Shown here: one piece after another, positions 1,993-9,528 of the stretch
Layout: each line of letters begins with the position of its first letter
How positions within the stretch are numbered: the stretch's first letter is position 1
Source of the DNA: Gemmatimonadota bacterium
GTDB lineage: Bacteria > GCA-2686955
Direction of reading: 5' to 3'
DNA length: 9,528 bases
NCBI GenBank assembly: GCA_002686955.1
Contig: NYZA01000250.1
Location: 1-9,528 of the forward strand
Made by a program: the position numbers and the translations under genes
The notes under the pieces: model-generated
Database searches by the model: none
The model's input: only the letters and a program-made list of their open reading frames with translations
What the model was told of the DNA's origin: nothing

Positions 1993-2025
1993 AGAGGTTC
2001 TCCCTCGGCCACCTCACCGAGACTG

Positions 2026-2207
2026 AGCCCGCATCATTCACCGAAACGCGTCGCGAGCCGGCGGAGATCCGTGCGTGGCAGGTGCTTCGTGCCCTTGCCG
2101 CGCGGAGGCGTGGTAGCACCCACGTCGCACAGGCGGCGAGGGTGGGAAGTGCCGGCCACGTGCGGATATGCGCCGGCGTAGTAGCGTTTCGGTGAAAAAT
2201 GCGGGCT
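2026..2207. repeat. 182-bp imperfect palindrome, family A, complete copy
   Basis: The two halves are inverted copies of each other almost to the centre. The ends are AGCCCGCAT on both strands, followed by two differing bases and a perfect 13-bp TTCACCGAAACGC. Further matching blocks are CCGGCG, ATCCG, CGTGGC, CTTC, CCCT, GCCGC and CGTGG, converging on a small apex at about 2115-2117 (GGT-AGC-ACC). By hand alignment about 64 of roughly 89 arm positions match, with a few single-base gaps. It occupies most of the 287-bp gap between the aminotransferase and the propeller gene. The half copy at 9439-9528 shares its sequence, so it is a repeat family rather than a local hairpin. No transposase is nearby; it is MITE-like or REP-like in form but longer than a usual REP. 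Confidence 0.85.
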
Positions 2208-2228
2208 GAGGGGATCGGCGGCCCGCAT
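2195..2228 (-). terminator. Rho-independent terminator after the class IV aminotransferase gene
   Basis: On the minus strand an 8-bp perfect stem ATGCGGGC/GCCCGCAT (2228-2221 with 2206-2199) encloses a 14-base loop and is followed by four further T residues (TTTT, 2198-2195) before a C. It lies about 50 bp past the stop of the aminotransferase gene, in the right orientation to end the glycosyltransferase-aminotransferase transcript. The 3' half of the stem is the end of the palindromic repeat; the 5' half is an adjacent inverted GCCCGCAT outside the repeat. The T run is short, so strength is uncertain. Confidence 0.6.
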
Positions 2229-2279
2229 CTGTGATCCTGGTTCATATTCCCGCGGAGGGAAACTCGCAAGGAGCCTGAA

Positions 2280-3182
2280 TCAGCCGACCATCCTCACCCC
2301 CGCTCGCTCCGATTCGTCTTCGAAAAGCTGAGCGATGTAACGGGTTTCGGGCCCGACCTTTCCGTCGCCGATCGGCCTGCCGTCCACCGCGGTAACCGCG
2401 ACGAGTCCGCCCATCGTGCCGGTACAGAACATCTCGTCGGCGCGGTAGACATCCGTCAGGGTGATTTCGCGGACCTCGCAAGGGATCTCATTCGTCGCGC
2501 AGAGCTCGAGAACGGTCGCCCGCGTGATCCCCTCGGGGCAAGCCCGCGCCGGTGGCGTTACCAACTTCCCCTCTTCGACGAGAAAAACATGCGTAGCGTT
2601 GGTCTCGGCCACCGACCCGTTCAGGTCCAGCATGAGCGCATCGTCGGCGCCCGCAGCGTTCGCCTGGATCTTGGCGAGGATCGACGGGAGCATGTTGGCA
2701 TGGTGGATCTTGGGATCTAGGCAGTCGGGCGAAGCACGCCGGATCGTGCTCGTGATCAGCTCGATCCCGTCGCTGTCGTAGACTGGGGGCTTGTGCTCGG
2801 CGACGATGATGAGCGTGGGGCCGGAGCGATTGAGACGGGGATCCAGTCCAGAGGTGATCTTCTCGCCTCGCGTGAGCGTCAAACGGATGTAGACGCCGTC
2901 GGTCATGTCGTTTTCCTCGAGTGTGCGCCTGATCTCTTCGGTGATGCGCTCTCGGGAGGGAAGATCGGTGTAGGCGAGCGCGAGGGCCGATGAGCGAAGT
3001 CTGTCGAGGTGCTCGGTCAGCTTGAACACGCGGCCCTTGCATAGACGCAGACCCTCCCAGATGGCGTCGCCTCCCTGAACGGCACTGTCGAATGGACTGA
3101 TCCTGGCCTGATCGCGGTGGACCAGCTCGCCGTTGATGTTGACGATGATGTCGCGGTTCTTTTCATTGAAGGTCTGCAGCAT
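2280..3182 (-). CDS. Class IV PLP-dependent aminotransferase (branched-chain / D-amino acid type)
   Basis: A 300-residue fold-type IV aminotransferase, normal length for the family that includes IlvE, D-alanine aminotransferase and PabC. Visible family motifs: W42-E-G-L-R, E57-H-L-D-R-L, Y98-I-R-L-T-L, E193 (pairs with PLP N1) in V-A-E-T-N, G218-I-T-R, and C253-T-G-T-M (phosphate binding). In the active-site segment (D156-P-K-I-H-H-A-N-M-L-P) the position aligned with the usual Schiff-base Lys is H160, and the nearest lysine is K158; see findings. The ATG overlaps the upstream glycosyltransferase by 20 bp and has a very strong AAAGGAGG six bases before it, so the two are co-transcribed. A likely terminator follows. 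IlvE-like substrate use is a guess; I therefore give no symbol. Confidence 0.85.
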   Translation of the reverse strand: MLQTFNEKNRDIIVNINGELVHRDQARISPFDSAVQGGDAIWEGLRLCKGRVFKLTEHLDRLRSSALALAYTDLPSRERITEEIRRTLEENDMTDGVYIRLTLTRGEKITSGLDPRLNRSGPTLIIVAEHKPPVYDSDGIELITSTIRRASPDCLDPKIHHANMLPSILAKIQANAAGADDALMLDLNGSVAETNATHVFLVEEGKLVTPPARACPEGITRATVLELCATNEIPCEVREITLTDVYRADEMFCTGTMGGLVAVTAVDGRPIGDGKVGPETRYIAQLFEDESERAGVRMVG

Positions 3183-4164
3183 CGGGGGCCTCCTTTGCGG
3201 TTCGCGAACGGACGTGCTCCAAGAATCCGCCTTCGGCGCCTCGCTGGGAAGGTCTTTTCGGACCGGTCAGCGAGAGCCGAATGAGCCCCAGTCCGCAACG
3301 AATGCGTTCGCTGGCCGCCGCCGCCCCCATGAACAGCGCGACCGGCAAGGACTCGACGACCCGAATCGCCCCCGCAAGCGCCGTCAGGGCGACGATGGGG
3401 GCACCGGGGAGCCCGCGAAGCCCCCAGTAGATGCGCCAGCTGCGCCAGTGCTCGACATGGCGTCTCGCCGACCAGGGCGGTCCCGTTCCACCCCCGCGAT
3501 GGTGCGCCCTCGCGCTCGGCTCGTACGCAACCTCGGATCCGCTCGCTCGAACCCGCTCGCAAAGATATACATCTTCGCAGTACATGAAGAAGCGTTCGTC
3601 GAAGCCCGCCACACGGCGAAAGATCGTGGCGGGGATCAGCAGAAGGGCCCCACTCACCCAGTGGGGGGCCGCGGGCGCGGAGCGGTCGGCGGCGGCCATC
3701 CGGAAGCTCCCGAGCCAGGGGAAGAGCCGCGCGAACCCATCGAGGCGAAGCGCGATCACGAGCAGATCCCAGGGCCGGGGTCGCCTTCCGAACGAAAGCT
3801 CGTCGCTCCCATCGGGGCGGAGCAGCCTGCCCCCTACGACGCCGATCGCTTCGTCCCTCTCTATCCGGGCGACCAGCGTCTCGACGGCGCCGGGCTCGAG
3901 CTCGGCGTCGGGATTGAGAAGAAGCAGCAGCTCTCCCCCGGCAAGTCGCGCACCTTCGTTGCAGCCCGCGCCAAAACCGCGGTTCCGATCCGCCCTCACG
4001 AGCCGAGCGCCGCGCGGCAGATCGCCCTCGACCACCGGGCGGCCGAGCGGGTGGCCGTGGTCCACGACGATCACCTCGCAGCCCTCTGGGATCGAAGCGA
4101 GTGCTCTCTTCAGCGAAGCTCGCGCGCCGAGGGCAACAACGATCACGGTGACTGTCGGAGGCAT
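3163..4164 (-). CDS. Family 2 glycosyltransferase (rhamnosyltransferase-like)
   Basis: A 333-residue GT-A-fold inverting glycosyltransferase that moves a sugar from an NDP-sugar to a growing surface glycan at the cytoplasmic face of the membrane. Seen: the nucleotide-binding start V4-T-V-I-V-V, V-V-D35, R60-N-R-G-F-G-A-G-C-N (typical of WbbL/RfbF-like members), the metal-binding N84-P-D-A-E, W169-V-S-G-A, G188-F-D-E-R-F-F, the catalytic E197-D198 pair and H221-H222. A hydrophobic segment at about 254-270 could anchor it in the membrane. The C-terminal tail is arginine-rich. The start ATG lies only 30 bp from the divergent GTG of the sugar aminotransferase. It is the first gene of a two-gene unit with the class IV aminotransferase. 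Acceptor and donor are unknown. Confidence 0.88.
   Translation of the reverse strand: MPPTVTVIVVALGARASLKRALASIPEGCEVIVVDHGHPLGRPVVEGDLPRGARLVRADRNRGFGAGCNEGARLAGGELLLLLNPDAELEPGAVETLVARIERDEAIGVVGGRLLRPDGSDELSFGRRPRPWDLLVIALRLDGFARLFPWLGSFRMAAADRSAPAAPHWVSGALLLIPATIFRRVAGFDERFFMYCEDVYLCERVRASGSEVAYEPSARAHHRGGGTGPPWSARRHVEHWRSWRIYWGLRGLPGAPIVALTALAGAIRVVESLPVALFMGAAAASERIRCGLGLIRLSLTGPKRPSQRGAEGGFLEHVRSRTAKEAPDAADLQ
3189..3196 (-). promoter_or_regulatory. Strong Shine-Dalgarno for the class IV aminotransferase inside the glycosyltransferase gene
   Basis: AAAGGAGG sits six bases before the aminotransferase ATG and within the last codons of the overlapping glycosyltransferase gene. It decides the start at 3182 and suggests this gene initiates efficiently on its own, rather than relying only on coupling. 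Confidence 0.85.
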
Positions 4165-4198
4165 GAAGCAGGTCTTTCCGGCTATGCTCGAAGCGTGA
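4163..4198 (+). other. Possible 11-codon mini-ORF coupled to the sugar aminotransferase
   Basis: An ATG at 4163-4165, preceded almost directly by GGAGG (4157-4161), opens an 11-codon frame. Its TGA (4196-4198) overlaps the GTG start (4195-4197) of the sugar aminotransferase as GTGA. Its ATG also forms the CATG palindrome with the ATG of the divergent glycosyltransferase. The spacing of GGAGG to ATG (one base) is too short for good initiation, although a second in-frame ATG at 4184 exists. It may be a coincidental frame. Confidence 0.2.
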
Positions 4199-5325
4199 AA
4201 ATCGTCCGTCTATCCGAGCCTTCGCTCGGCGCGCTGGAGCGCCGCTACATCGAGGAGTGTATCGATTCAGGCCAGCTCACGGCCGGTGGTCCCTTCGGAG
4301 CGCGTCTCGAAGAGATCGTCGCGCGCCATCTGGGCCTTCAGCCGGCGCTGGTCGTGGCCACCACATCGGGCACGTCGGCACTGACCCTCGCCCTGCTCGA
4401 GCTCGGCGTCGGTCCGGAGGATGAAGTCGTCGTTCCGCAGCTCAGCTATGTCGCCCCCGCGAACGCGGCCGCTTGTCTGGGAGCGAGGCTGCTCTTCGCG
4501 GCGGTCGAGCCCGAGACCGGCCTGATCTGCGCTGCCGAGCTGGCCTCATTGCTGGAAGACCGAGTTCGGCATCGAGACCGCCCGCCGAAGGCGGTCATCG
4601 GTGTCGACCTCTTGGGGCGCGTGGCGAGCTGGTCGTCTCTACTCGATATTACCGATCGCCACGGATGCGCGCTGGTGGAAGACGCCTGCGAGGCGCTCGG
4701 CGCCACCGGCGAGAACGATCTTCCGGCGGGTCGGTGGGGCCACATCTCCTGCTTGAGCTTCAACGGCACCAAGACTGTGACGGGAGGAGCGGGCGGCGCG
4801 ATCCGCCTGCCCGATCGGGCGGCAGCGAATCGAACCCGCATGCGCGCGAATCATGGCCGCCGCCCTGGGCGCGATTTCGTCCACGAGCGGATCGGGGACA
4901 ACTGCCGCATCTCGAATCTGCACGCGGCCATTGCAACCGCGCAGATGGAGCGCCTCGGCGAGCTCGTCGCGGGTCGGCGGAGGGGCGAACTCCAGTATCG
5001 AAAAGCCCTTGAGCAGCATCGCCTTCCGCTCGCCTGGCTGGGCGTGCCCCCAGACACCCTCCACCTCGATTGGCTCCCCCCCTGCCTGGCATCCGATCTC
5101 GATACCCGGGAGCGCGTGCTCGATGCGCTCGGGGGCGAGGGCGTCGAAGCCCGTCCCTTCTTCGAACCCTTGCATCGGCTCCCCCCCTTCACGACCTGCC
5201 CGCGGGGTTCGACCGAGGCCGCCGAAGACCTGGCTTCTCGCGGCTTTCTTCTACCCTCCTCCTCGGACATGTCCGACCATCAGATCGAGTCCATCGTCCA
5301 GATCCTCTCCCGCTGCTTCCCGTGA
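4195..5325 (+). CDS. DegT/DnrJ/EryC1/StrS family (LegC/perosamine-synthase-like) sugar aminotransferase
   Basis: A 376-residue PLP enzyme of the family that aminates keto-deoxysugars bound to a nucleotide (PseC, LegC, GDP-perosamine synthase), a cytoplasmic step in making amino-sugars for surface glycans. Seen: S58-G-T-S-A (PLP phosphate), V79-V-P-Q-L-S-Y, V161-E-D-A (D163 pairs with PLP N1), the Schiff-base K193 in F-N-G-T-K-T, G197-G-A-G-G, and N236-C-R-I-S-N-L-H-A-A-I. Length matches the family. The frame is open far upstream, but the conserved start (K-I-V-R-L-S-E-P-S-L) fits a GTG at 4195; there is no clear Shine-Dalgarno. It diverges from the glycosyltransferase across 30 bp and overlaps the following lipoprotein gene by GTGA. 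The sugar made (4-amino-4,6-dideoxy type is usual) is inferred, not shown. Confidence 0.88.
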   Translation: MKIVRLSEPSLGALERRYIEECIDSGQLTAGGPFGARLEEIVARHLGLQPALVVATTSGTSALTLALLELGVGPEDEVVVPQLSYVAPANAAACLGARLLFAAVEPETGLICAAELASLLEDRVRHRDRPPKAVIGVDLLGRVASWSSLLDITDRHGCALVEDACEALGATGENDLPAGRWGHISCLSFNGTKTVTGGAGGAIRLPDRAAANRTRMRANHGRRPGRDFVHERIGDNCRISNLHAAIATAQMERLGELVAGRRRGELQYRKALEQHRLPLAWLGVPPDTLHLDWLPPCLASDLDTRERVLDALGGEGVEARPFFEPLHRLPPFTTCPRGSTEAAEDLASRGFLLPSSSDMSDHQIESIVQILSRCFP

Positions 5326-6404
5326 CCGATCGATTCCCACTCTCCAGCGGCCCTGCCCTCGCCTTGGCGTGCACCGTCGCGCTCGGGGTCCTGCCCGGCT
5401 GCAAAGAGCCCTGCTGTGCCTCCCCGTCCACTCCAGCGGAGCTGGTGCTTCGAGACATCGCGCTGGAAAACGAATCGCTGGCTGGAGTTGTAACCGATCC
5501 CTCGGGCAGCGCATGGACCTCCCGTTTCCGCGGCGAGGGCTACAAGGTCACCCCCGAGGGCTCGACCGAGCTCCTCGCCGCCCCGATTCGGCTCGGCGCG
5601 GATCGTGTCGACATCGACCTCGACGCGACGGGCGATCCGATCTTCGCGGTTTGGTATCGGGGCGTGGCCATCGTGCACGCGGACGACTCCCCCCCCACCT
5701 ACACCGTGTTCGACGGGACGACCGATTGCCTGCCCTCGGTGCGCGCAACCGTGATCCGCGGCGAGCCGGGTGGATCGATCCTGGTCGGAATCGCACGCAG
5801 CGATGGCATCACGCGAATCTTCCCATACAACTCCGCCGGCCCTTGCCCTCGCTGGACCTCGGAGAACACACCGATGTCGCTCGGCCCAGGAATCGAGGAT
5901 GGAGACGGGTGGATCGGCGGGATCAGCGAAGAGCTCTCGGGTGAACACTGGGTCGGCGTCAGCGACGATGCCCTCTACCGCTGGCGCGACGGCGGCACCC
6001 CCAACGACCCCGATGACGATGAATGGACCGCCTTCAGGCCAGCAGATCGCCCAGAGCTGACAACTCTTCGGTTCCCCCATATCGCCCGCGGCCCCGATGG
6101 GGGCGTGTGGGTCGCGACACCCGACGGCCTGATCGTGATCCGCGGCGACACATGGATCCGCGCATCCGAGCTCATGAGCCCAAATGTGTCTCATGTCGAT
6201 TTCGGGCCGCGAGGATTCGCCTGGGTGTCGACCGGTTCAGGAATCTCCGTGCTATCGACCGACACTTTGCGGGAGATGGCCCAATACAGCACATTCTCCG
6301 GGCTCCCAAGCGCGTCGGTCACAGGTGTGGCTTTCGCCCCTTCGGGCGAGATCGCTTATGTCGCGACGGCTTCCGGCCTGGCGATCATGGATCGGATCGA
6401 CTAG
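5322..6404 (+). CDS. Propeller-repeat lipoprotein of unknown function
   Basis: A 360-residue secreted protein. The signal peptide has an R near the N-terminus, a hydrophobic core (about 10-23) and a good lipobox L24-P-G-C27. The C-terminal third holds three W/Y-V-A/S-T-x-x-G-hydrophobic repeats starting near 260, 299 and 344, about 40 residues apart, as in the 'two-component regulator propeller' type of beta-propeller; a more degenerate version of this pattern continues upstream. It is likely a periplasm-facing or surface propeller. The GTG start (5322-5324) overlaps the TGA of the aminotransferase, and no separate Shine-Dalgarno is evident, so translation is probably coupled. The 3' end overlaps the convergent nucleotidyltransferase gene by 20 bp. 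I cannot assign a function. Confidence 0.8.
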   Translation: MTDRFPLSSGPALALACTVALGVLPGCKEPCCASPSTPAELVLRDIALENESLAGVVTDPSGSAWTSRFRGEGYKVTPEGSTELLAAPIRLGADRVDIDLDATGDPIFAVWYRGVAIVHADDSPPTYTVFDGTTDCLPSVRATVIRGEPGGSILVGIARSDGITRIFPYNSAGPCPRWTSENTPMSLGPGIEDGDGWIGGISEELSGEHWVGVSDDALYRWRDGGTPNDPDDDEWTAFRPADRPELTTLRFPHIARGPDGGVWVATPDGLIVIRGDTWIRASELMSPNVSHVDFGPRGFAWVSTGSGISVLSTDTLREMAQYSTFSGLPSASVTGVAFAPSGEIAYVATASGLAIMDRID

Positions 6405-7116
6405 CCCCCTGCGCCACGAGATTGCTGGCGCGCAGAAGCGATTCGAAGGTACCTGCGTCGGTCCACCAGCCATCCAGGATCGAGAACTTCATCTCACCAC
6501 GTTCTACGTAGTGATTGTTCACGTCGGTGATCTCGAGCTCACCGCGTTCAGAAGGCTCGAGTCCGCGCACGATATCGAACACTGAGGCATCGTACATGTA
6601 GACACCGATGACCGCGAATCGGCTCGGCGGAGTGCTCGGCTTCTCGATGATGCGAATAATACTGTCCCCATCGATCTCCGGAACACCGAAACGCTCCGGG
6701 TCGGGCACCTCTTTGAGCATGATCCGGGCGCCTTTCGGGTTCTCACGAAACGCATCGACCGCCGCGGCGATCCCTTTTTCTAGAATATTGTCGCCAAGAA
6801 TCACCGCAATCGGCTCGCCGTCGGCGAAATCCTCAGCCAATGAGAGCGCGTCGGCTATTCCGCCTTCCCCTTCCTGATATGCGTAGTGCATCCGCTTCAG
6901 ACCGAAGTCGCGGCCATTGCGCAACAGTTTGAGAAAGTCCCCGGCCGAATCTCCACCGGTGACGATCAGTATCTCCTCGATGCCGGCGGCCACGAGTGTC
7001 TCGATCGGGTAGAAGATCATCGGCTTCTCGTGCACCGGCAGCAGATGCTTGTTGGTCACGCGGGTCAGGGGGTTCAGCCGCGTACCCAATCCGCCCGCTA
7101 GGATGACACCTTTCAC
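6385..7116 (-). CDS. Sugar-1-phosphate nucleotidyltransferase, short RmlA type (glucose-1-phosphate thymidylyltransferase-like)
   Basis: A 243-residue nucleotidyltransferase that joins an NTP (usually dTTP) and a hexose-1-phosphate to give NDP-hexose and pyrophosphate. Seen: the Rossmann-like G8-G-L-G-T-R-L loop, K23 in T-N-K-H-L-L-P, Q81-E-G-E-G-G-I-A-D-A, the metal-binding D109 in L-G-D-N, E158-K-P, and W217-W-T-D220-A-G-T. It has the short form's length (about 240) rather than the 290 of enterobacterial RmlA, so the regulatory C-terminal part is absent. The start is GTG at 7116, overlapping the ugd TGA as GTGA, with GGGGGAG about nine bases upstream. Partner rmlB, rmlC and rmlD genes are not in this window. 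Being next to ugd, a UTP-using role is possible; the family signature favours dTTP. Confidence 0.88.
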   Translation of the reverse strand: MKGVILAGGLGTRLNPLTRVTNKHLLPVHEKPMIFYPIETLVAAGIEEILIVTGGDSAGDFLKLLRNGRDFGLKRMHYAYQEGEGGIADALSLAEDFADGEPIAVILGDNILEKGIAAAVDAFRENPKGARIMLKEVPDPERFGVPEIDGDSIIRIIEKPSTPPSRFAVIGVYMYDASVFDIVRGLEPSERGELEITDVNNHYVERGEMKFSILDGWWTDAGTFESLLRASNLVAQGASRSDP

Positions 7117-8435
7117 GATGCAGCGCTCCCCCGCCCGAACCCGTCGTAGTGGAATCCCGCCTCGGCCACGACGGTCGGATCGTAGATGTTGCGACCATCA
7201 ATGAGCACTGGGCTCAGCATCGATTCCCGGATCCTTACCAGATCGAGCTCCTTGAATGCGTCCCATTCCGTGACGACCACCATCGCATCGCAGCCGGCCA
7301 CCGTAGCGTACGCCGAGCGACAAAGCTCGATCGGCCATTTGCGCTTCGCGGCCTCTTCTCCGGCAACCGGATCGTAGGCCTTGATCTTGGCGCCCGCCGC
7401 ATGAAGACTCTCGATGATCCGCTCCGAAGGAGCCGCGCGCAGATCGTCGGTATTCGGTTTGAAAGAGAGTCCCAAGAGACCGACAGTGCGGCCGCCCAAG
7501 TCGGGAAAAACCCGTTGCAGCTTCTCGATGACGCGCAATGGCTGAACGTCGTTCACCTTCATCACCGCGTCGACGATCCGTAGATCGTAGCCGGCGTCTC
7601 TCGCGATCTCGAGAAGCCCCTCGGTGTCCTTGGGAAAGCACGAGCCGCCGTACCCGATCCCGGCGTGAAGGAACCTCGGCCCGATGCGGGAGTCCATCCC
7701 CATCCCCTTGGCCACCGTATCGATGTCGGCGCCGACCCGCTCGCAGACGTTGGCGATCTCGTTGATGAAGCTGATCTTCGTCGCCAGGAACGCGTTCGAC
7801 GCATATTTGATCATCTCGGCCGACTCGACATTGGTCGCGATGATCGGCGTCTCCAGGGGCGGGATCGAGAGCGGATCGTAGAGGGCACGCATGGCATCGA
7901 GAGCGCGCTCGGACGTGCAGCCGAGCACGATCCGATCTGGTCGCTTGAAGTCGTTGATCGCCGAGCCTTCGCGCAGAAACTCCGGATTCGACACGATATC
8001 GAAATCGAAGTCGCCGTTTCGCTGGGCACGAATGAGATCCTGCATTCGCGCGCCGGTCCCCGCCGGCACGGTGCTCTTGTTGACAATGATCTTGTAGCTG
8101 TTCATATGGGTGGCGATCTCGGCCGCCACAGCCTCGACGAACTTCAGATCGACCCCTCCGCCCTCTCTCGGCGGCGTCCCCACCGCGACGAAGATGACCT
8201 CTGACGCTCGAACCCCCTCCTCCATGGACAGAGAGAACCTGAGCCTTTCTTGCTGGCAGTTCTGCTCGACCAGCTCTGCCAGGCCGGGCTCGAAGATCGG
8301 CATGATCCCCTTCTTCAGCCCCTCGATCCTATCTTCGTCGACGTCGATGCAGATGACTTCGTTGCCGAGGTCCGCCAGGCATGTGGCCGTGACCAGACCG
8401 ACGTAGCCAGCGCCTACGACACAGATCTTCTTCAT
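7113..8435 (-). CDS. ugd: UDP-glucose 6-dehydrogenase
   Basis: A 440-residue enzyme that oxidises UDP-glucose twice with NAD+ to UDP-glucuronate, a precursor of capsule and other acidic glycans, in the cytosol. Domains: N-terminal NAD-binding Rossmann fold with V7-G-A-G-Y-V-G-L and the NAD-selecting acid D31; a central helix with E207-M-I-K210-Y-A-S-N214; the catalytic C266 in G-Y-G-G-S-C-F-P-K-D270; and a C-terminal UDP-binding domain with G322-L-S-F-K-P-N-T-D-D. All key residues are intact and the length is typical of the TuaD/RkpK group. It is the first gene of a two-gene unit with the RmlA-like enzyme (GTGA overlap). GGGAG lies about ten bases before the ATG. Its 5' region holds a 179-bp palindrome that could form a large leader hairpin. 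Confidence 0.95.
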   Translation of the reverse strand: MKKICVVGAGYVGLVTATCLADLGNEVICIDVDEDRIEGLKKGIMPIFEPGLAELVEQNCQQERLRFSLSMEEGVRASEVIFVAVGTPPREGGGVDLKFVEAVAAEIATHMNSYKIIVNKSTVPAGTGARMQDLIRAQRNGDFDFDIVSNPEFLREGSAINDFKRPDRIVLGCTSERALDAMRALYDPLSIPPLETPIIATNVESAEMIKYASNAFLATKISFINEIANVCERVGADIDTVAKGMGMDSRIGPRFLHAGIGYGGSCFPKDTEGLLEIARDAGYDLRIVDAVMKVNDVQPLRVIEKLQRVFPDLGGRTVGLLGLSFKPNTDDLRAAPSERIIESLHAAGAKIKAYDPVAGEEAAKRKWPIELCRSAYATVAGCDAMVVVTEWDAFKELDLVRIRESMLSPVLIDGRNIYDPTVVAEAGFHYDGFGRGSAAS

Positions 8436-8754
8436 GAGAGGTGGCTCCCAGAGAGGCGAGGTGCGCGGATGGATCGAGCCCCTTCAAGGCTCATTCGGAG
8501 GTTTCGGCCGCTTTTGCTCGCCCTTTGGGTTCGCACAAGAATAACTTGTCATTCGGCATCCCATCCGCACCACGTCTCCGGCCGATCGCCGACCTCCGAA
8601 ATCCTCGAAATAGCTCTGCTATTCCTCCGGTTTCGAAGATCGGCGATCGACCAGATCCGCGGCACATCTGGGCGCCAAGATGGCAAGTTACTCTTGCGCG
8701 AACCCTTTGTTCGTTACTCGATAAAGTGCGGGATTTTAGCAAAGAGCGGGGGGG
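8436..8754. other. 319-bp intergenic region between pyrF and ugd
   Basis: No credible gene lies here. Going from pyrF towards ugd there is an AT-richer stretch (about 8706-8750) in which a promoter could lie but no convincing -35/-10 pair is seen, then the 179-bp palindrome (8527-8705), then about 90 bp of ugd leader. The leader contains a small stem GAGCC/GGCTC (about 8477-8493) and the ribosome-binding site. Small ORFs crossing the palindrome encode similar peptides on both strands simply because the DNA is palindromic. Confidence 0.7.
8527..8705. repeat. 179-bp imperfect palindrome, family B, upstream of ugd
   Basis: Two 88-bp arms of exactly equal length flank a 3-base loop TCT at 8615-8617. 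The ends are a perfect 8-bp inverted repeat GGGTTCGC/GCGAACCC. Longer matched blocks include TAACTTG, CGATCGCCGA and AATAGC next to the loop. By hand alignment 62 of 88 positions are Watson-Crick matched with no gaps. Of the 26 mismatches, 12 would be G-U pairs in a minus-strand RNA and only 3 in a plus-strand RNA, so a minus-strand transcript would form about 74 of 88 pairs. The sequence is unlike the family A palindromes at 2026 and 9439. CCCTTTG is present as a direct repeat at both boundaries (8521-8527 and 8703-8709). Confidence 0.88.
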
Positions 8755-9447
8755 TCAACCAGCGCTTTCGGCCCGGATTTCGTCGAGAATCGCCTCGGCC
8801 GCGGCTCGCGGATCGGCTGCCTGGTAGATCGGTCTGCCCACGACCAGCAGGTCGGCCCCGGCCGCGATCGCTCGCGCCGGCGTCGCCACACGCTTCTGGT
8901 CACCCGCATCACCTCCGGCGGGACGGATTCCCGGCGTCACGATCAATGGACGATCGCCCAGCTCTCGACGCAGTGCCGGCAGCTCCCTCGCCGAAGCGAC
9001 GACCCCGCGCAGTCCCGCATCGCGCCCGGCTCGAGCCAGATCGGTGACTTCGCGCGTGTTGGCCACCGCCCGACTCGTCAAAACGGTGATCCCGAGTACG
9101 GCCGGCTCTGTCCCCCCGCCCTCTCGCGCCCCTTCGACCGCGGCCCGCATCATCGCCTCGCCCCCCGCGATATGGACCGTCAGGTAGCGCACCCCGAGGC
9201 GCGAGGCGGCTCTGCACGCTCCACCGACCGTGGCCGGAATGTCGTGGAACTTCATATCGAGAAACACCTCGAATCCGAGCGCCCGCACTTCGGCGATCGC
9301 TGCCGCGCCATGTCCTACGAAGAGGCGGGGACCGATCTTGAGGGTGCGCACCAACCCCTTCAGCCGCCTGGTCAGGTCGAGCGCGGGGTCCAGCTCCTCG
9401 AAGTCGAGCGCGACCGCGAGGCGCTCCTCCGGTGATCTAGCCCGCAT
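8755..9447 (-). CDS. pyrF: Orotidine 5'-phosphate decarboxylase
   Basis: A 230-residue TIM-barrel enzyme that removes CO2 from OMP to give UMP, the last step of pyrimidine nucleotide synthesis, in the cytosol. Seen: A13-L-D15-F at the first strand, L36-K37-I-G, the catalytic D64-M-K66-F-H-D69-I-P tetrad, T171-P-G-I-R175-P and V203-G204-R205 for phosphate binding. Length fits the bacterial type I form. The ATG at 9447 is the only possible start: an in-frame TGA lies two codons upstream and no ATG or GTG follows before the conserved core. That ATG, the GGTGA before it and the next two codons lie in the end of a family A repeat (see findings). The gene points towards ugd, 319 bp away. It supplies UMP, the root of UDP-sugars, but a functional link to its neighbour is not shown. 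Confidence 0.95.
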   Translation of the reverse strand: MRARSPEERLAVALDFEELDPALDLTRRLKGLVRTLKIGPRLFVGHGAAAIAEVRALGFEVFLDMKFHDIPATVGGACRAASRLGVRYLTVHIAGGEAMMRAAVEGAREGGGTEPAVLGITVLTSRAVANTREVTDLARAGRDAGLRGVVASARELPALRRELGDRPLIVTPGIRPAGGDAGDQKRVATPARAIAAGADLLVVGRPIYQAADPRAAAEAILDEIRAESAG

Positions 9448-9528
9448 TTCTCACCAACTTTCTGCTGTGGCGGCGCATCTCCGCACCCTGGCAGCACTTC
9501 CCCCCGTTTCGCTTTGTGCGACGTGCAA
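9439..9528. repeat. Family A palindrome, half copy running off the right edge
   Basis: From AGCCCGCATTT at 9439 the plus strand follows the minus strand of the 2026-2207 element to the window end. Shared blocks, in order, are AGCCCGCATTT, TCACC, CGGCGCAT, TCCGCAC, GCACTTCC and TGTGCGACGTG, with only two compensating single-base gaps. The window stops close to where the centre of the palindrome should be. It is therefore in the opposite orientation to the first copy, and its other arm should lie just outside. Confidence 0.8.
9451..9455 (-). promoter_or_regulatory. Ribosome-binding sequence of pyrF supplied by the repeat end
   Basis: On the minus strand GGTGA is followed by GAA and the pyrF ATG. 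GGTGA can pair with the TCACC part of the 16S rRNA 3' end. The same GGTGA with a nearby ATGCGGGCT is found at both ends of the 2026-2207 repeat, so this site belongs to the repeat. Confidence 0.5.

Follow-up and report, generated by a model that had tools for sequence, protein, structure and literature searches.

Palindromic intergenic repeats of a Gemmatimonadota genome are very probably non-autonomous transposons of the IS1380 type

Bacterial MITEs, which are non-autonomous transposons, are short non-coding units with terminal inverted repeats, target duplications, many copies, a hairpin fold and a parent insertion sequence (IS) elsewhere, and they are usually lineage-specific. The palindromic repeats described here resemble them in each of these structural features and differ in that interior, length and fold are conserved between phyla. 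Elements of the IS1380 family (NF033539; for example IS1380A, IS1247 and ISPme1) likewise have CCCGCATTTCTCAC ends and a 4- or 5-bp target duplication, but they are about 1.65 kb long and carry a transposase gene, whereas our repeats are geneless, measure 176-178 bp and have an interior unrelated to IS1380 subterminal sequence. REPINs and REP sequences with their RAYT also form populations of intergenic hairpins that are specific to a genome and include no autonomous copy; the present repeats differ from these by their target duplications and IS1380 ends, and a Y1 transposase is absent from some carriers. The Chunjie MITE of Geobacter uraniireducens, as described in a review, is 178-235 bp long, with conserved ends, direct repeats, a mostly intergenic location and dozens of copies (PMC10969869); set against that description, our repeats are alike in length, ends, repeats, location and copy number, and the two might belong to one family. 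A text search of the literature for the end sequences returned no paper printing them, few papers mention IS1380 together with MITEs, IS1380-derived MITEs are not described in those examined, and the papers searched hold no description of this family.

The window, that is, the whole 9,528-bp stretch of DNA analysed, is the whole of contig C250; the assembly to which it belongs comprises 270 contigs (4.28 Mb) and is 84.5% complete. An earlier note had proposed from two copies that the window contains members of a family of ~180-bp palindromes present in many copies, each longer than a REP unit, with no transposase in sight. All of this was borne out: both palindromes are real, with slightly refined boundaries (Table 1), full-length copies measure 176-178 bp, roughly 50 copies occur in the genome, and the window is free of a transposase. 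There is no coding gene within the 178-bp element, so it encodes no IS1380 transposase. Strands are given in a family orientation in which the left arm, marked by CTACTACG, comes first. The copies in the window represent two subfamilies, and the complete one folds far better than its shuffles (z = -8.9 as RNA, -6.4 as DNA).

Table 1. Features of the two palindromic elements in the window.
Feature	Coordinates	Strand	Remark
Left 5-bp target-site duplication CTGAG	2023..2027	.	Direct reading; same as 2206-2210
Complete putative MITE, subfamily A1, 178 bp	2028..2205	-	Full-length hairpin, CCCG...CGGG
Right 5-bp target-site duplication CTGAG	2206..2210	.	
CTAG (YTAR) target site, single side	9437..9440	.	
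Left half (88 of 176 bp) of a putative MITE, subfamily A2	9441..9528	+	Truncated at contig end
IS1380-type terminal inverted repeat CCCGCATTTCTCACC	9441..9455	+	First 14 bases identical to IS1380 plasmid ends

The "half element" that had been placed at 9439-9528 is real, but its size is due to an assembly break: the contig stops at the centre of the dyad, leaving exactly one half, and no half-size variant is involved. It is identical at 83-86 of 88 positions to the first 88 bp of five complete A2 copies on other contigs, and these copies, 176 bp long, continue as palindromes. The condition under which the earlier note would have given up the family, a lack of both further copies and a palindromic continuation of the half, therefore does not apply. 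The minus-strand reading frame next to it (8755-9447, pyrF-like) has its start codon, at 9445-9447, inside the end of the element (GGTGAGAAATGCGGGCTAG), which may thus supply the frame with its ATG and ribosome-binding site.

Searched by blastn against its own genome, each window copy matched tens of places (down to E 1e-81 for 2028-2205 and 1e-42 for 9441-9528, self-matches aside). A loose pattern of the ends hit 65 places without a mismatch; when two mismatches were allowed it gave 401 and 413 matches vs. 145 and 114 for the control, an enrichment that is not clean. A stricter 28-position end pattern matched 48 times, the control (the reversed pattern, which gives 0-1 matches per genome) being 0 here. 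About 55 of the 540 contig ends, counted from match lists, lie within 250 bp of a copy, which makes the repeat one of the chief reasons for contig breaks; adding some 20 complete internal copies leads to the figure of roughly 50 in this genome. Besides A1 and A2, a third subfamily could be distinguished (A3, CCCGGATATCTCACGAGATTCC; e.g. on C108 and C11). Solo ends considered as borders of long elements (on C108, C8, C179, C249 and C47) turned out to be degenerate copies or fragments with no transposase between ends, and a 1.29-kb end pair on C108 consists of one A3 copy and an unrelated solo end, flanking an xdhC-like gene. On C8 (L093:1-672), an element end adjoins DNA that by eye resembles the tail of an IS91-like transposase gene.

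The window also contains other repeats. One, at 8533-8699, belongs to a second palindromic family with ends GCGCAAGAATNACTTGTCATT (113 in the genome, 0 in the control), about 167 bp at full length and with short copies of about 75 bp; it is probably another MITE. A third repeat, TATGCGCAACAGGCTCCTAG, is represented at 425-441 by a diverged copy. Elsewhere this third repeat directly abuts copies of our element (L055, L083 and L097, with close variants in L005 and L019), and the CTAG at the edge of this repeat apparently serves the element as a target.

The ends of the element point to its likely transposase. IS1380 elements on plasmids of Pseudomonas and Stutzerimonas have identical ends: in pKF715A of Pseudomonas putida and in a Stutzerimonas megaplasmid, the element runs from CCCGCATTTCTCACAG to CTGTGAGAAATGCGGG with CTAG on both sides, a Bradyrhizobium plasmid has the same ends with one change, and the common form can be written CCCGCATTT[C/T]TCACA ... 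TGTGAGAAATGCGGG, again between two CTAG. Rhizobium IS1380 ends are a diverged form and those of Acetobacter IS1380A a more distant one, while such ends were not found in a Sinorhizobium relative (L252). These plasmid elements, relatives of a protein from carrier genome G278, were used to read complete IS1380 ends. Our first IS1380 searches, in the source genome and eight carrier sequences, had given weak or fragmentary matches. Over all such searches, G036, G100, G101, G102 and G103 yielded no IS1380 match, and G099 and G155/G098 only weak ones. A subsequent scan of eight carriers for PF01609 (DDE_Tnp_1), with inspection of flanks, yielded one protein with a matching end, in G278. This intact IS1380 transposase scores 390.7 bits with NF033539 (cut-off 180), and the exact end GTGAGAAATGCGGGCTAA follows it. 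The first 14 bases of the window repeat at 9441-9455 equal this right end too; the left end has apparently been displaced by an IS3-like element. The earlier note had recommended looking for a RAYT or another transposase with matching ends; a RAYT link is not supported, and the ends that match are those of IS1380, a DDE transposase family.

In G363, the elements have an end variant of their own, TCTCATCA, and an IS1380 remnant there terminates with CCCGCATTTCTCATCA, so that the ends are shared down to a genome-specific variant. A 178-bp copy in the same genome (L260:1873-2050), with CTAG on both sides, adjoins an IS1380 transposase coding remnant and was possibly inserted into it. Several mini-copies of 48-56 bp consist of the ends only (L094:810-865, L098:1260-1315, L136:2483-2536 and L199:1501-1548), one of them with an intact TTAG duplication; as they keep nothing but the two ends, the ends alone may suffice for movement. 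An IS1634 gene in G099 (L226) near an end-like site was taken as a coincidence, the end being single and degenerate. The source assembly has no intact IS1380 gene, just a fragment of ~98 codons on C237 without the ends of our element. Multi-copy elements are what short-read assemblies lose, and this one is incomplete. Given that no intact gene is present, we infer mobilization in trans by an IS1380 transposase, here by one now missing from the assembly.

Duplicated target sites, which the earlier note did not mention, bound many copies. Identical 4-bp flanks were found in 24 of 56 distinct copies from all genomes, typically of the form YTAR (CTAG, CTAA or TTAG). Fourteen are CTAG, which is self-complementary and cannot separate a direct from an inverted repeat. 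The other 10 (CTAA, TTAG or CCAG) are direct only, vs. a single inverted-only case; we therefore rejected the idea that the YTAR flank is part of the inverted repeat. Direct duplications of this kind are the mark of a DDE transposase and not of a RAYT. The remaining 32 copies lack a perfect 4-bp duplication, as is expected of old copies and is uninformative, and four of these have a 5-bp one; 5-bp repeats flank three of the four A1 copies (CTGAG in the window copy, CTCAG and CTCAA). A check for interrupted genes based on open reading frames was uninformative, since spurious frames are everywhere in this GC-rich DNA. No empty site was seen in a close relative; the sole relative of the same family compared, G001, has no such ends. 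The published IS1380 member IS1247 has 5-bp repeats (PMC3281130 Table 2).

In sum, the repeats are short and non-coding, have terminal inverted repeats and target-site duplications, and occur in multiple copies per genome. They are thus very probably MITEs, 176-178 bp long, of the IS1380 type. An IS1380-family DDE transposase supplied in trans would bind the ends, CCCG[C/G]AT[T/A]TCTCAC, mobilize the unit, insert it at YTAR and duplicate 4 bp (5 bp for A1).

To compare the interiors, we aligned 27 copies from ten genomes in 181 columns, almost without gaps. All but one are 175-178 nt long, the exception being 179 nt. In the common orientation, copies read CCCG..TCTCACC..TTC-TGCTGCGG on the left, have a central hairpin CGACGTAC..GTACGCCT and end in CCTCGCGACGAA..GGTGAGA..CGGG on the right. 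Between genomes, interior identity (columns 23-159) is 53%, vs. 28% for a same-column shuffle and 35-36% for sequences shuffled and realigned. We infer that the interior has one origin and that length and fold were kept across phyla. An unlikely alternative is that these are ordinary recent MITEs, each genome having deleted a resident IS1380 internally, with likeness between genomes confined to the ends. Such deletion would account for the IS1380 ends, it does occur, as the 48-56 bp mini-copies show, and MITEs derived from other IS families are known. However, it would explain neither the nearly gapless interior identity nor the uniform length of 26 of the 27 copies, and by eye the interior is unlike IS1380 subterminal sequence.

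The elements we regard as IS1380-type MITEs are also alike in fold. The outer stem (columns 1-22) is 93% paired in the 27 copies. The consensus has 35 pairs, which are formed in 92.7% of cells; 20 of these pairs show changes on both sides, and the covariation score is 0.36 vs. 0.15 for shuffled alignments and at most 0.07 with the partner slid. Either selection or template-switch repair of quasi-palindromes would have kept this fold; such repair improves imperfect palindromes and also yields paired changes. Positions 23-26 and 157-159 are conserved yet unpaired in the consensus, which may speak for selection or a binding site. The shared skeleton, the covariation and these unpaired positions suggest that the element is a satellite of IS1380 transposases, old and under structural constraint. 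More tentatively, and with somewhat less than even confidence, we consider that it could be an ancient separate lineage, a ~176-nt hairpin with conserved internal loops that parasitizes IS1380 transposases in several phyla under selection on its fold. That selection might act on transposition, on tolerance of the long palindrome by SbcCD-type nucleases, or on an RNA.

A search for exact matches to a 23-base pattern of the ends picked out contigs labelled Fermentibacteria, Gammaproteobacteria (one MAG), Holophagae, Acidobacteria and Actinomycetes; these labels are taken from the titles of the records and may be wrong where genomes were binned. No viral contig matched, and a complete A2 copy used as blastn query found nothing among plasmids and phages. 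Of 386 genomes sampled broadly, six had complete elements (the source genome, G036, G155, G278, G363 and G378); G146 has one end only and a match in G010 is probably due to chance. In a FastTree phylogeny, with weak deep support, copies cluster by genome and the two Holophagae genomes group together. We read the element as one old family, which would have moved between lineages or descended with them and been amplified locally. There is a small probability that this sharing across phyla is partly an artefact of mis-binned metagenome contigs, in that the named carriers are all MAGs and the Fermentibacteria entries G155 and G098 look like one genome. Yet the copies of each genome cluster apart and differ from those of the others at about half of their interior positions, and the six genomes with complete copies represent different families, five of them being 95-98% complete with at most 2% contamination. 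Several carriers have enlarged copies of 180-361 bp (L198, L202, L147, L135, L149 and L117), containing nested insertions or extra hairpin arms. The inner inserts are small palindromes or other DNA; examples are CCGCCAGCTGGCGG, seen in Fermentibacteria, and CGAAAAATTC..GAATTTTTCG, from the MAG of Gammaproteobacteria.

The strong fold and its covariation might also be those of a structured RNA or regulatory element, such as a terminator or attenuator, that merely resides in intergenic regions. We consider this very improbable: Rfam gave no match above the gathering score in the window, and the copies, which have IS1380 ends and target duplications at their borders, are located at unrelated sites, one of them beside an IS1380 coding remnant. 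Least credible of all is the link to REP sequences and RAYTs raised in the earlier note, in which REPIN-like palindromes, which these genome-specific hairpins resemble, would be moved by a single-copy Y1 HUH transposase, since three carriers (G099, G100 and G101) have no Y1 match, the Y1 protein that the source genome does encode (C59:8842-9117) has no element end in the ~1.1-1.5 kb of flank read per side, and the copies lie between direct duplications of variable sequence, a product not known from Y1 enzymes, and end like IS1380.

Identification of these repeats as very probable IS1380-type MITEs names an enzyme family for a previously unlabelled repeat that lies near roughly a tenth of the contig ends in this genome, and the end motif and alignment are sufficient for annotating the element elsewhere. 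The retention of its length and fold across bacterial phyla contrasts with the usual view of MITEs as short-lived, lineage-specific debris. If it is true that the fold is selected, this would be a testable example of a non-autonomous element that is long-lived and depends on its structure.
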